Below, one piece after another: positions 22,466-29,297 of a stretch of DNA of 64,000 nucleotides. Location of the stretch: positions 3,139,026 to 3,203,025 of the forward strand of contig NZ_CP113797.1 of assembly GCF_026802175.1 (NCBI RefSeq), given 5' to 3'. Every line of letters starts with the position of its first letter. Position 1 is the first letter of the stretch. The notes under the pieces are model-generated. The model worked only from the letters and a program-made list of their open reading frames with translations, did no database searches and was not told the origin of the DNA. The translations under genes and the position numbers were made by a program. This DNA comes from Thermocoleostomius sinensis A174. GTDB taxonomy: Bacteria > Cyanobacteriota > Cyanobacteriia > Elainellales > Elainellaceae.

Positions 22466-24004
22466 CTATTTGCCGGCTAACCTCTCGTCAACTGGCAATT
22501 CAACAGACTGCCGAGTTCGATCGAGCAGGGCATAAAACGGCTGCCAATCGTCGTCTTGAGCGATCGGCTCCCAAACTGCTTCAATTTCGGGGCGAATGAT
22601 CACCGTCATAGGATTATGTTGCCGTAGGCGTTGAGCCACTGCGTCCATCTCGTCGATCGGCAGATGGTTAAGCACTTGATGGTAGAACTGCCGCCATTGC
22701 TGAAACAACACTGACACTGTTTCGGCTTGGGCTTGCGGTGCGTCTATTTCCGCTTGCGCAAAAATATGAGTTGCATCCTCTCGCCAGTTTGGGGCAAACT
22801 GTTGACGCAAGGCCAAGAAGAAATCGTGATATCCCACTTTGCTTTCCCACAACAGTTTCAGGGTGCGGCGCAATAATTCCTGTCCTACTTCGATCGATAT
22901 TCCTTCTAAACTCACCTCAAATCCCAGCTTGCGCACCATTCGCTCGCAGTAAGTTCTTTCATAATGAACATCAAACTGGGCGAGCACCGTTTCCATTTCG
23001 AATGCTTCGATCAATCCCTTCAGCGGCACTTGCAACATCTGCAAATTCCATAGACAGGCAGTGGGTTGATTGCCATAGCAGTAGCGCCCATAGTAGTCAA
23101 AATAAGCAGCCGTGAACTGTGGATCATACTGCTGAATGAACGCATAGGGGCCATAGTCAAAGCTTTCGGCGGCGATCGACATATTGTCGGTGTTCAGCAC
23201 GGCATGGCAAAACCCTACCGACATCCACTGTGCGGCTAGTTCTGCTACTCGTTGTACCAATTCAGCATAGAAGCGCAGATAAGCATCGGGTTGATCGATT
23301 AAATGGGGGTAGTAAAACTGAATCACATGATTCAACAACGTTTGGGTTAAATCTTGCCGTCCCAAATAGTGCAGCCGCTCAAACGTGCCAAAGCGAATGT
23401 GCGATCGGGCTACGCGCACCATCACCGACGATCGAGTGGGCGAAGGTTCATCTCCCCGCCATAGGGCTTCCCCCGTTTCAATTAAACTCAGACAACGAGA
23501 CGTTCTCACCCCTAAACGGTGTAGCATTTCTGCCGCCAATACCTCGCGCACTCCTCCCTTCAGCGTCAGCCGTCCGTCGGCTCCTCTAGAGTAGGGCGTG
23601 GTTCCTGAGCCTTTCGTGCCCAAATCATACAATTCTCCTTGTACGTCGCGTACCTGTCCATAGAGAAACCCGCGCCCATCGCCCAAGCGAGAGTTATATT
23701 CGCCAAACTGATAGCCGTGATAGCGCATTGCTAAAAACGGCTGTCGTCCCCGAAAGTAGCCAAAAGCGTCGATGAAATCAGCATCAGACACTGTATCCGG
23801 CCGAAGTCCAAACCGTAACAGCAGATCGTCATTGCGAAACCGCAGCGTATGACGCGGAAATTCTGCGGCAGTCACACTATCGTAATAATCATCTCCTAAG
23901 CGTTCAAAGGCAGGCTCATAGGCTAGCTCTGTGAGTGGATTGGAGACATGAAAGCGATCGATCGAGTCAGGTAGCACCATTGATTTGGAAGAAAAGGTAG
24001 ACAA
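22466..24004 (-). CDS. selO: Protein adenylyltransferase SelO (YdiU/UPF0061)
   Basis: A 512-residue pseudokinase that transfers AMP to protein hydroxyls and takes part in redox stress responses in studied bacteria. [22 protein letters not shown] and [25 protein letters not shown] are the family core, including the nucleotide-binding glycine-rich and lysine residues; [11 protein letters not shown] is the catalytic-loop-like segment. The start is uncertain: a TTG at 24004 follows AAGGAGG by only three bases, while the ATG at 23980 lies further from it. Length matches the family. Confidence 0.9.
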
Positions 24005-24068
24005 GAACCTCCTTTCAGTCTATCGACTCCCTCTCGCCCAATCCCTAACTTTCCCAGAAAGTACAAAA

Positions 24069-24158
24069 GGGAGAGCCTTTTGGCAACTCTCCCAACCATC
24101 AGGGTGCATCTACTTAGCACATTATGCCATCTGAGGGGTGGGGGGTGTCACCCCCTAA
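24069..24158. repeat. Structured repeat element, copy 1
   Basis: Bases 24084-24158 are identical to 24304-24378. Each copy starts with a GGGAGAG/CTCTCCC hairpin whose loop differs between copies and ends with a GGGGGTGTCACCCCC hairpin. Between them is a conserved unpaired stretch. It lies between selO and the amidohydrolase gene. Confidence 0.85.
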
Positions 24159-24177
24159 AGGAATTTGTTTACAAAAA

Positions 24178-24280
24178 GTTTAAATAGATGCCTAGCCTCC
24201 ACTCTTAGCGAGCACCCGCTTGTGATCCCTAGGTAGAGCGAGCGGTTGAGCGTACTTTGGGGAGCGCTGATGATTTAAAC
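24178..24280. repeat. Spacer bounded by GTTTAAAT/ATTTAAAC inverted ends
   Basis: The sequence between the two repeat copies is itself flanked by perfect eight-base inverted repeats (24178-24185 and 24273-24280). No reading frame of note is inside. Confidence 0.4.
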
Positions 24281-24290
24281 AAAAATAAAG

Positions 24291-24378
24291 GAGAGTCGTT
24301 GAACAACTCTCCCAACCATCAGGGTGCATCTACTTAGCACATTATGCCATCTGAGGGGTGGGGGGTGTCACCCCCTAA
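24291..24378. repeat. Structured repeat element, copy 2
   Basis: Second copy of the 75-bp identical block, spaced 220 bp from the first. Its leading hairpin is GGAGAGT paired with ACTCTCC with a loop different from copy 1, keeping the stem. The trailing GGGGGTGTCACCCCC hairpin is unchanged and ends 23 bases before the amidohydrolase stop codon. Confidence 0.85.
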
Positions 24379-24400: not shown

Positions 24401-25522
24401 CTATAGAAAAGGTTGATAGAGGCGTTGTGCGTTACGCCAGAGAATATCGATGGCTGCCTCTTCAGCTTCTTGGGCGCTCAGATCGCCCGATTGAATGGCA
24501 TCTTCCAAAACTTGGCTCAGTCCGGCTCGTCCCCATTTGGCCCCTAGATAGTACAACTCTGGAATGAGGTGAGCATCCGAAGAATACACAATTTTACTGG
24601 TAGGGCTAAGTTCTAACAGCATCTCCAGACAACGCTTCATTCCTATAACACTGAGAAACGGAACGGCAAGTCCTGTATCAACATACACGTGAGGGTATAC
24701 AGAGGCCAAATAGCCTGCTTCCTGAGTGTAGGGATAGGAGGCATGAAGCAAGACGATCGGCACTTGACGATAGTGTGGATTTTCTAGTAGGGGTCGCAAA
24801 TGCAGAGGATTCGCCAGCCGCAAATCTAGATCTGGATCACCAAATCCTGAGTGAAACTGCACCGGCAGGTGGTATTGTGCCGCGATCGCCAGCGCTTCGT
24901 GGAGCAAAAAATCAATCAAGGCTTTGTCGCTGAGGCGAATTTGCTCTGGATACTGTTCTTTTAGGGCATAGAAGCGATCGGCGGCTAGATCAAGGGGAAT
25001 GGACTGAATATCCAACCCGCTGCGGTAGGCGGCGATGCTCTTCAAGCCTACAACACCTTTCGGTGGCGGATTTAGTTCACTGCGAAACCATTCCAAAAAG
25101 ATCTCAAACCGATCGACTTGGTTCATTAGTTGCTCGGCCAGCCATTCAATGCGCAACAATCGCTGAATCGACGTAAATTGCTGATGCCACTCCCAAGGCA
25201 GAATGGTGTCGGGCAAAAACCCGTCATCGAGATACACAGCTTGCAAATTGGCCGCCTCAAAGCAGCACCGAGTTAAGGCTTCTAGCCCTAGCTGCGATCG
25301 GCGGTCTAAAATGGCGGCTTCTGTGGGGTGACAATCCAGTAATTGGGCGATGTCGCGTAGGCTGCGGCGATAGAACAGCGTCGATCGAGCATGATGATGA
25401 ACCACTTCAGGATCATATCCCTCGGTGAAGGCACAGACATAGGGCGTAGCGGCTGCCACATCCGAGCGCACTAGATTGTGGGCATGTTGATCGATCGCTG
25501 CAATGCCAGATAAATCTATCAT
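24401..25522 (-). CDS. Amidohydrolase family protein (FluG N-terminal-like)
   Basis: A 373-residue metal-dependent hydrolase of the amidohydrolase-2 type. IDQHAHN supplies the HxH metal motif, VQFHSGFGDPD and VLLHASYPY the later histidines, and YSSDAHLIPELYYLGA the catalytic Asp with the pattern seen in the amidohydrolase half of fungal FluG/glutamine-synthetase-like proteins. The start at 25522 gives the canonical MIDLSGIAAIDQHAHN opening; a longer frame would overlap the upstream gene. It follows the AtzH/HpxZ-like gene by seven bases, so the two form an operon. The substrate is unknown. Confidence 0.82.
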   Translation of the reverse strand: MIDLSGIAAIDQHAHNLVRSDVAAATPYVCAFTEGYDPEVVHHHARSTLFYRRSLRDIAQLLDCHPTEAAILDRRSQLGLEALTRCCFEAANLQAVYLDDGFLPDTILPWEWHQQFTSIQRLLRIEWLAEQLMNQVDRFEIFLEWFRSELNPPPKGVVGLKSIAAYRSGLDIQSIPLDLAADRFYALKEQYPEQIRLSDKALIDFLLHEALAIAAQYHLPVQFHSGFGDPDLDLRLANPLHLRPLLENPHYRQVPIVLLHASYPYTQEAGYLASVYPHVYVDTGLAVPFLSVIGMKRCLEMLLELSPTSKIVYSSDAHLIPELYYLGAKWGRAGLSQVLEDAIQSGDLSAQEAEEAAIDILWRNAQRLYQPFL

Positions 25523-25529
25523 GCTACAT

Positions 25530-25925
25530 TCATCCCCCTCCGTGACAAGTGGGGGGAGCAGGCAACAGCGACACGTGGGCACTCACTACCCGCCAGCCAT
25601 CGGGGGTACGCATCCAAGTTTGGCTTTGTCTACCGTGTTGTCTGCCGCGTTGAAACTCAGTATTGGCCGTAGCAAAATCGCGCCCGTAGGTGGTGATGAT
25701 TGTATTTTTCAACGTGCGATCGAGTCCAATGGCCGATCGGGCGGTTCGAAAGGCAGCAATGGCTTCATAGCCATATAAATTCTCGGTAACGCCATAGCGA
25801 ATGGTGTGCGGACTGTGCCAAAACAGTCGATCGAGAACCGGAACTTGATTTTGCACCAAAGCCACTTCGTATTGCTCGAAGGCAGCGGTTACTTCCATCA
25901 CCACATCGGCAAGATTGATTTCCAT
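25530..25925 (-). CDS. AtzH/HpxZ-like small protein (DUF3225)
   Basis: A 131-residue NTF2-like protein similar to HpxZ of oxalurate breakdown and AtzH, the small subunit that stabilises 1-carboxybiuret hydrolase. [20 protein letters not shown] and [17 protein letters not shown] are the family hallmarks. The ATG at 25925 was chosen because MEINLADVV matches the usual beginning; the preceding codons are a repetitive ITM/EIN stretch. It is the first gene of a pair with the amidohydrolase, which suggests a partner or accessory role in cleaving a carboxylated or amide nitrogen compound. Confidence 0.8.
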
Positions 25926-26306: not shown

Positions 26307-27137
26307 TCAGGAAGTTTGCCTTAACCGAGAAACCAGAATGGCGATCGCAAACAGTCCAAACTGAGCAACGACAATGCTGGGGCCAGACGCCAAATTCCAG
26401 GCCGCAGACATGACAATTCCTAAGATTGCGCTCAATGCTCCTATCCCAATTGCCAGCAACACATACCACGCAAACTGATGGCTGATTAACTTCGCAGTTG
26501 CAGCAGGAATGACCAAAAATGCATTGACCAACAAGACCCCAACAGCTTTGATGGCTACCGCTACCGCTAGCGAAAGCAACACAATGAACCAAGCCTGATG
26601 CTGTTGAACCGCTACCCCTTGTGCTTTGGCCATGCCTTCATGCAGTGTCAATAATACTTGGGCCCGATGGGTTAGCAGCAAAGACACGGCGCTTACGAGG
26701 CAAACCATCGTAGTCAACCACAGATCGATCGATTGGATAGCCAAGATATCACCGAATAGTAAATTCATCAAGTTGCCACGATAGCCTTCAACAAAACTTA
26801 GAGCAAGTATGGCACCTGCCAGAGACACTGAAAAGACAATATTGAGAACAGCGTCACTCCATAAATTGGTTTGAGAGATGAGATAAATTACACCAAGTCC
26901 AAACAATACTGTGAATGGTAACAGCGCCAGTGTTGGATTAAGGTTAAACAACACTGCAAGAACAATGCCCAGTAACGCTGCGTGACCAACAGTGTGACTG
27001 AAGAAAGAAAGCTGGCGTAAAATTGCAAAACTGCCTAAAAGTCCCCCCAATATTCCTGTCAAAATTCCTCCTAGTAGCGCTCGCTGCATGAAGGGAAAGG
27101 ACATTAATTCAGTGATGCGATCGAGGGTGTCTAGCAT
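26307..27137 (-). CDS. znuB: Zinc/manganese ABC transporter permease
   Basis: A 276-residue inner-membrane permease of the ABC-3 family with about eight or nine hydrophobic segments. QRALLGGILTGILGGLLGSFAILRQLSFFSHTVGHAALLGI is the typical N-terminal region (given in two parts: helix one, then the F-SHTVGHAALLG loop). It moves Zn2+ (or Mn2+) across the membrane. It is the last gene of the znuA-znuC-znuB run. Confidence 0.9.
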   Translation of the reverse strand: MLDTLDRITELMSFPFMQRALLGGILTGILGGLLGSFAILRQLSFFSHTVGHAALLGIVLAVLFNLNPTLALLPFTVLFGLGVIYLISQTNLWSDAVLNIVFSVSLAGAILALSFVEGYRGNLMNLLFGDILAIQSIDLWLTTMVCLVSAVSLLLTHRAQVLLTLHEGMAKAQGVAVQQHQAWFIVLLSLAVAVAIKAVGVLLVNAFLVIPAATAKLISHQFAWYVLLAIGIGALSAILGIVMSAAWNLASGPSIVVAQFGLFAIAILVSRLRQTS

Positions 27138-27180
27138 GGCAAAGCGGGTTATATATACAAATGAGTTGGGATCATCCTAT

Positions 27181-27942
27181 CTAGTGTTGATGGCGGTATC
27201 GAGCAAACTGAGGTCCATACGCGGCTATCAGATTTTCGATAGAGAGGGTAACGTCCGGTGTACCTTGGCAAACAATCGATCGATTCAAACAAATTACCTG
27301 GTCGCAGAATCGACTGACCATCTCTAAATCATGAGAAATTTGCAAAATCGTCCAGCCATGGTTCAACTTTAGTTGATTCAACAAGTGATAGAATTCCGCT
27401 TCGGCTTGATAGTCGAGTCCTGCTGGGGCTTCGTCTAGGATGAGCAAACGACGTGGTTGTACCAAGCAATAGGCCAGCAGCACCCGCTTGGTTTCACCAC
27501 CAGATAATCTGCCGATCGACTGGTGAATGAGATGACAGGCATTCACTCGCGTTAGGGCCTGCACCACCGCCCGCTGCCGAGCGATTCGGCTTCGCCACGG
27601 CAAGCTGATTCCAGGACGCCCCCATCCCAACGCTACAAATTCTGCAACCGTCATAGGAATGCCACGATCGAACAAAAAGCTCTGCGGCAAATAGGCAATC
27701 TGAGGACGAACAGACACCGGAATTTTTCCAGCGCGAATCGATCGCCCCAAAAGTGAGACATCACCAGACTGCCAGGGAATAATACCCAACAACGCCTGCA
27801 CCAAGGTGCTTTTTCCTGCCCCGTTTGGGCCAATTAAAGCCGTATCAGTGCCTGCCTCTAACGCAAACGATACATCGTGAACAACTTGATGCGTGCCTCG
27901 ATAAACACTTAGTCGTTCAACCGCCAACACAGTTTCCATCAA
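27181..27942 (-). CDS. znuC: Zinc ABC transporter ATP-binding protein
   Basis: A 253-residue ATPase of the metal ABC-importer type. Walker A is GPNGAGKST, the signature is RLSGGETKRVLLA and Walker B is RLLILDEAPAGLD, with the switch His in QISHD. It powers the permease encoded 43 bases downstream. Metal specificity is inferred from the His-rich substrate protein upstream. Confidence 0.92.
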   Translation of the reverse strand: MMETVLAVERLSVYRGTHQVVHDVSFALEAGTDTALIGPNGAGKSTLVQALLGIIPWQSGDVSLLGRSIRAGKIPVSVRPQIAYLPQSFLFDRGIPMTVAEFVALGWGRPGISLPWRSRIARQRAVVQALTRVNACHLIHQSIGRLSGGETKRVLLAYCLVQPRRLLILDEAPAGLDYQAEAEFYHLLNQLKLNHGWTILQISHDLEMVSRFCDQVICLNRSIVCQGTPDVTLSIENLIAAYGPQFARYRHQH

Positions 27943-27972
27943 TGCGCTGCCCCGCCTGCCATGCTTAGCCTA

Positions 27973-29163
27973 CTATGCGGTAAGGCAATCGAGCAGAGCG
28001 ATCGAACGGGGAAACTGAGCGACCGTCCATCTCAGGGTAGAGGCTTGGGATTGTTCAAAAGCAGACCTGAGGTTTTCAACGTTTTCCCGCATGATTCTTA
28101 GGTAATAGTCTGCGGATAGACTGTCCGACCCACCTGTTTCCATCGGATCAAAACTGCTGACCTGCACATCCAAATCACTTGCCAGGGCCGAAAACTTGCT
28201 GTTGCTGGCTTGAGGTTCCGTCAGTAGAACCTTCAGATTAGCGCTGCCTGCGGTTTCTAATACCCGTTTTACATCATCGGGCGAGGGATTCTCTTCAGGC
28301 AAACCAACTAAATACTCTGCCTCTAAGGCATAGCGTTGGGCAAAGTAAAAAGCAAAGTCGTGATAGGTGACAAACTTCTGCCCCCTATAGGGTTGCAGCA
28401 TTTCAGCAATTTCCGCATCGAGCGTTTCCAACTCCTGAATGTAAGCGGCTGCATTTTCGGTGTAGATGGCTTCACCCTCTGGATCAACAGCAATTAGACC
28501 GTCGCGGATGTTCTCCACTTGTTGAATGGCCTTTTGGGGATCAAGCCAAATATGCGGATCGAACTCACCATGAGCATGGGCATGGGACGTGCCTGTGGTT
28601 GCAGTAGACAGATCTTCCTGATCGTGAGCGTGATCATGATCGTGGGCGTGATCGCCGTGGGCATGAGCTTCATCATGTGCGTGGCTATGTCCGTATGGCT
28701 CTTCGTTTGCAATGGGTACAATGCCTTCGCTGGTGTCGATAACCTGCAAATTTGGATTGTTGGCATTTTCGATCAAGCTGTCGAGAAACGTTTCTAGTTC
28801 TAATCCGTTTTGCACCAACACATCCGCCGCTGCGATCGCGCGCACATCATCGGGTTTAGCTTGAAAATCGTGAGGGCCAACGTTAGGAGGCAACAAATAG
28901 GTTACTTCAGCCCGATCACCTGCCACAGCTTCTGTAAAGTTTGTGACAGGAATGGTCGTCGTGACAATGGTCAACGTTTCGGCATCGGACGTGTCAGCAG
29001 AAGCTACCGGATTCGTGGTATCTGTGCCCGCAGAATCGGTTGCTGTGGGTGTAGATGGTGCACAGCTACCTAGACCGGTCGCAAAGGTAGCGATTGCACT
29101 CAACAGCACCAATTTACGAGAAAGCTTAGGGGGACGGGAAGATAGATTGCTTAACTGAGACAT
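27973..29163 (-). CDS. znuA: Zinc-binding lipoprotein of ABC importer
   Basis: A 396-residue periplasmic substrate-binding protein of the cluster A-I metal family. The start at 29163 gives an N-terminal signal with lipobox LGSC, so the mature protein is lipid-anchored. A long His/Asp-rich loop (HDEAHAHGDHAHDHDHAHD) between GHSH and EFDPHIWLDP marks zinc-specific members; the coordinating histidines include those in GPHDFQ, DPHIW and TYHDFA. The operon runs znuA-znuC-znuB, with Zur-box-like sites 130-190 bases upstream. Confidence 0.92.
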   Translation of the reverse strand: MSQLSNLSSRPPKLSRKLVLLSAIATFATGLGSCAPSTPTATDSAGTDTTNPVASADTSDAETLTIVTTTIPVTNFTEAVAGDRAEVTYLLPPNVGPHDFQAKPDDVRAIAAADVLVQNGLELETFLDSLIENANNPNLQVIDTSEGIVPIANEEPYGHSHAHDEAHAHGDHAHDHDHAHDQEDLSTATTGTSHAHAHGEFDPHIWLDPQKAIQQVENIRDGLIAVDPEGEAIYTENAAAYIQELETLDAEIAEMLQPYRGQKFVTYHDFAFYFAQRYALEAEYLVGLPEENPSPDDVKRVLETAGSANLKVLLTEPQASNSKFSALASDLDVQVSSFDPMETGGSDSLSADYYLRIMRENVENLRSAFEQSQASTLRWTVAQFPRSIALLDCLTA

Positions 29164-29297
29164 GATCTTGTCAGTAAGAACGCAACTACTTAGCAGATGA
29201 TGTCGAAACATTAGAAACCTGCGATCGAACCGGGATTGCTCCAACGGTTCCTGTCAAGAGACAGCCACAACTGGGCCGATCTACTAAACTTCAATAA

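Follow-up and report, generated by a model that had tools for sequence, protein, structure and literature searches.

What is the nature of a short DNA element that stands twice between two protein genes of Thermocoleostomius sinensis A174? The two 75-bp units, located in the window (the whole stretch of 64,000 nucleotides that was analysed), were found by direct sequence comparison to be exactly identical, as the first-pass annotation had reported (Table 1). Both are enclosed in a 92-bp direct repeat (93% identity, 220-bp spacing), which lies between selO (22466-24004) and an amidohydrolase gene (24401-25582), both on the minus strand. The window also contains a bacterial small SRP RNA (RF00169; 36942-37038, plus strand) and consecutive ABC-3 permease, ABC ATPase and ZnuA genes forming a zinc-uptake type operon (26307-29244, minus strand). 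The repeat had been ascribed either to a tandem small RNA or to a mobile hairpin element. The tandem small RNA fits, in the orientation opposite to the one implied. With a probability of about 78%, each repeat would be a stand-alone minus-strand sRNA gene, paralogous to NsiR1 and expressed from a HetR-box promoter by the mechanism proposed below.

Along the minus strand, each copy presents the palindrome GGGGTGACACCCC, the extended -10 element TGGCATAAT, a segment starting with AAGTAGATGCACCCTGATGGTTGGGAGAGTTG, a hairpin and a T-rich tract. This arrangement predicts a small-RNA gene about 52-54 nt long, with an extended -10 promoter, the 5' stretch GUAGAUGCACCCUGAUGGU and an intrinsic terminator. 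A plus-strand reading was discarded, since both the -10 and the T-tracts of the terminators lie on the minus strand. In this orientation, the GAGAG/CTCTC hairpin that was thought to lead each unit is its 3' terminator, and the closing GGGGGTGTCACCCCC hairpin lies upstream of the transcript. The latter is indeed present in both copies and reads more plausibly as a DNA operator near -35 than as an RNA hairpin. The loops of the terminator hairpin differ between copies A and B while both pair, as first noticed. Moreover, pairs 6 and 7 of the stem vary in compensatory fashion among relatives (C-G, U-A, U-G). The inverted ends attributed to the spacer exist as an 8-mer pair, GTTTAAAT/ATTTAAAC (24178 and 24273), and are not significant in such AT-rich DNA, where the repeat search returned no inverted pair of length 12 or more. 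The sequence beyond the terminator of copy A (TTTTGTACTTTCT) is also that of the single copy of a relative (L012), so that copy A is probably the older one and copy B its duplicate. Tandem copies of the HetR-box sRNA, up to four, recur in other genomes (G173:C39:406-1444; G358:C42; L059, L060, L062, L076, L080, L094).

Table 1. Features of the repeat locus, in window coordinates; sRNA starts are inferred.
Feature	Position	Strand	Basis
Copy A, 75-bp identical unit: promoter and sRNA to terminator 5' arm	24084..24158	-	sequence comparison
Copy B, 75-bp identical unit	24304..24378	-	sequence comparison
Copy A, predicted NsiR1-like sRNA, about 52 nt	24063..24114	-	RF02399 24.2 bits, E 0.01
Copy B, predicted NsiR1-like sRNA, about 54 nt	24281..24334	-	RF02399 33.4 bits, E 5e-5
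Copy A, intrinsic terminator hairpin, then TTTTGTACTTTC	24069..24093	-	folding; stem kept with compensatory changes
Copy B, intrinsic terminator hairpin, then TTTATTTTTG	24290..24312	-	folding; stem kept with compensatory changes
Copy A, -10 element CATAAT, TG before it	24121..24126	-	fixed distance in 74 promoters
Copy B, -10 element CATAAT, TG before it (extended -10)	24341..24346	-	fixed distance in 74 promoters
Copy A, GGGGT-N3-ACCCC palindrome, putative HetR box	24142..24154	-	fits GGGnnnnnCCC (PMC4192349); position conserved
Copy B, GGGGT-N3-ACCCC palindrome, putative HetR box, centre about -34	24362..24374	-	fits GGGnnnnnCCC (PMC4192349); position conserved

NsiR1 (RF02399) is a HetR-dependent, heterocyst-specific sRNA of Nostoc, where it represses target mRNAs. 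The covariance-model search recommended by the first-pass annotation matched this family on the minus strand, with an alignment that is gap-free across the first 19 positions in both copies. Neither copy reached the gathering score (39 bits; Table 1), and Rfam at its gathering threshold thus misses the element. The shortfall sits mostly in the terminator part; the NsiR1 5' sequence GUAGAUGCACCCUGAU is identical over 16 nt in both copies. The predicted length and the hairpin followed by a T-rich tract compare with an RNA of about 60 nt ending in an intrinsic terminator for NsiR1. Similar length, the terminator hairpin with its U-tract and tandem copies each with its own promoter are likewise shared with NsiR1 of Nostoc sp. 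PCC 7120. In contrast to the latter, the copies studied here have a HetR-type palindrome instead of DIF1 (TCCGGA) in their promoter and GGGAGAG as terminator stem, stand in tandem between selO and the amidohydrolase gene and not at hetF, and belong to a type that occurs in genera not known to form heterocysts. Since the gathering score, the DIF1 promoter and the hetF locus are all wanting, they are referred to as a HetR-box class of NsiR1-like sRNA and not as NsiR1 proper. Being homologous to NsiR1, this sRNA should work like it.

The host genome also carries five other loci that exceed the RF02399 gathering score and have the same GUAGAUGCACCCUGAU. Four host NsiR1 copies are preceded by TCCGGA. 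These DIF1-type copies share the 16-nt 5' stretch with the repeat-locus copies but differ from them by their promoter, their scattered single occurrence and their higher score. A DIF1-type copy (L004; G000:C1:8089-8147) stands upstream of hetF and in opposite orientation, the arrangement known from Nostoc (PMC8406250). The HetR circuit is represented in the host by hetR (585 bits), a HetP-family gene and hetF, and nifH is present too. A patX-like short ORF ending in RGSGR was seen upstream of hetR (L031, about 556-660, with hetR at 1342); no TCCGGA was seen in the stretch examined before it. The named relatives of the genome with the hetF-linked DIF1-type copy are not known as heterocystous.

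The palindrome upstream of the -10 looks like a direct site for the master regulator HetR, for which binding is predicted. HetR requires GGGnnnnnCCC and binds GAGGGGTCTAACCCCTC at hetP (PMC4192349). The putative box shares with that site the form GGGGT-N3-ACCCC with its GGGnnnnnCCC core and, in relatives, often CCCCTCA on the downstream side; it differs by its central bases and by its location at an sRNA promoter and not at a protein gene. Its position was analysed in 74 non-redundant promoter regions, both repeat-locus copies counted in, that had been gathered with a pattern not comprising GGGN5CCC. This motif was present in 68 of them. In 63 it occupies one and the same position, its centre some 34 nt ahead of the inferred start; the shuffled controls average 0.35. 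The GGGGT and ACCCC arms are conserved in these promoters and the central bases vary. DIF1 is absent from the repeat-locus copies and from all homologues of the HetR-box type (74/74). Genome-wide, GGGGTN3ACCCC occurs in the host at 7 places, with promoter placement only at the two repeat-locus copies. Because the examined upstream stretches of host hetP and hetR contain no GGGN5CCC, the box is without confirmation on a second HetR target in this genome.

Copies were also sought in other genomes. A DNA similarity search recovered related, diverged elements in 47 of the 60 genomes searched, and the 5' stretch GTAGATGCACCCTGATGGT was invariant across 21 aligned sequences from that search. An exact 39-mer scan of the named contig collection gave no match; a shorter core pattern retrieved 68 records. 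This pattern includes the 5' stretch and GGGAG, whose conservation among these records is therefore by construction, and is biased to the HetR-box subtype; the palindrome, the -10 and the terminator 3' arm are independent of it. Besides MAGs, the records include Leptolyngbya, Oculatella, Elainella, Nodosilinea, Halomicronema, Planktothrix, Planktothricoides, Roseofilum, Lyngbya and Oscillatoria. The genera of the named records, all filamentous cyanobacteria, are not known to form heterocysts, and no heterocyst-forming genus name appears among the 68. The neighbouring genes mostly differ, selO being found at 13 and the amidohydrolase gene at 2 of 87 loci; these extend to 8 kb at most, and some are overlapping records from one genome. 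That the neighbourhood is mostly not kept points to the sRNA being an independent gene, usually with one or two HetR-box loci per genome.

The distribution of both promoter types was surveyed in 368 cyanobacterial genomes of the class (completeness floor 85%). The HetR-box type was detected in 150 genomes (1 with a reversed-pattern control), the DIF1 type in 176 (control: 2) and hetR in 184. Box and hetR occurred together in 147 genomes, hetR alone in 37, neither in 181 and the box alone in 3, the last being taken for draft-genome gaps. These genomes are not independent, since the distribution of hetR follows phylogeny; by family, tallied by hand, 20 have both, 3 hetR only, 1 the box only and 20 neither. 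One family (f32), taken for heterocyst formers because of its arrays of DIF1 copies, has DIF1 copies in all of its 25 genomes and the box type in 9, so that other lineages are not alone in having the latter. The standout trait of this family is its DIF1 arrays. In one genus (f13 g55), 6 of 7 genomes have the HetR-box type without a DIF1-type match (G079, G128, G160, G230, G284, G353) and G101 has one.

From these elements the following mechanism can be proposed. A HetR dimer would bind the GGGGT-N3-ACCCC palindrome standing in for a -35 element and would activate RNA polymerase at the extended -10 promoter; blocking of the polymerase is the less probable effect. Transcription would end after about 52-54 nt, where the GGGAGAG hairpin is followed by the T-rich tract. 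Like NsiR1 in Nostoc, the RNA would then repress its targets by pairing, through the unpaired 5' stretch, with the translation-initiation regions of their mRNAs. The two tandem copies may provide a higher dose.

No convincing target was found by complement search in the host genome, duplex energies or orthologue comparison. The 13-nt complement with at most one mismatch has 14 sites in the host genome, 7 of which are known sRNA copies, against 3 for the reversed-pattern control, so that a single-genome match means little. Among known or likely targets, duplex energies did not single out the translation-initiation regions of hetP or hetR (ranks 57/98 and 88/98); the hetF start, with no ATG near its expected position in frame, was left out of this scoring. 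A putative secreted protein gene (G000:C1:4898104) has a 5' UTR complementary to the sRNA 5' stretch (-25 kcal/mol; G000:C1:4898061-4898073, L115), and its orthologue in G001 reaches -31 kcal/mol at another place in the leader (L127, about 1433-1447). Three other orthologues with a start in reach have no such complementarity. The gene is a lead only, because it was the search itself that selected the first site.

Other readings of the locus can be weighed against this evidence. The mobile alternative, a REP/MITE-like repetitive hairpin element, would account for two near-identical copies 220 bp apart. It is highly improbable, as the 5.8-Mb host genome, assembled as one contig, contains the 92-bp element in full nowhere else, genomes usually have one or two loci, and the order from promoter to terminator is conserved in dozens of species. 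Hardly more credible is that GGGGGTGACACCCCC, just downstream of the amidohydrolase stop codon (24401), serves as terminator of that upstream gene and that only the GAGAG hairpin belongs to the RNA. GGGGGTGACACCCCC has no T-tract after it and keeps its distance to the sRNA -10 in relatives, where the neighbour is mostly not an amidohydrolase gene.

A more serious competitor, though unlikely, accepts the NsiR1-like sRNA gene and makes the palindrome either the operator of another regulator or a site through which HetR represses. Indeed, the palindrome overlaps the -35 region, where repressors bind too, some copies have a TGACA reminiscent of part of a -35 hexamer, and ChIP suggests that HetR acts in vegetative cells as well (PMC4192349). 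Nevertheless, about 19 nt separate TGACA from the -10, GGGGT and ACCCC are conserved where the central bases vary, and the box closely co-occurs with hetR. The sRNA gene with direct activation by HetR is preferred.

An NsiR1-like RNA has been annotated in Limnospira (PMC8400943); in the open-access literature searched, no other mention of NsiR1 outside heterocyst formers was found, and priority is not certain. The HetR-box class is probably older than heterocysts. It may further be, with odds slightly short of even, that the HetR circuit of multicellular cyanobacteria included NsiR1 ancestrally, with two original routes of activation side by side, a direct one by HetR at a -35 palindrome and another via DIF1, and that the DIF1 arrays were retained and multiplied in the heterocyst lineage. 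The role of HetR and PatX in filamentous cyanobacteria without heterocysts has been described as a mystery (PMC11298460). An sRNA with a HetR-type box in most sampled hetR-bearing genomes offers a specific candidate for the HetR output in these organisms, and its conservation suggests that the NsiR1 of heterocysts was recruited from an older circuit. If the ancestral-circuit reading is true, HetR would act in good part through an sRNA in species without heterocysts.
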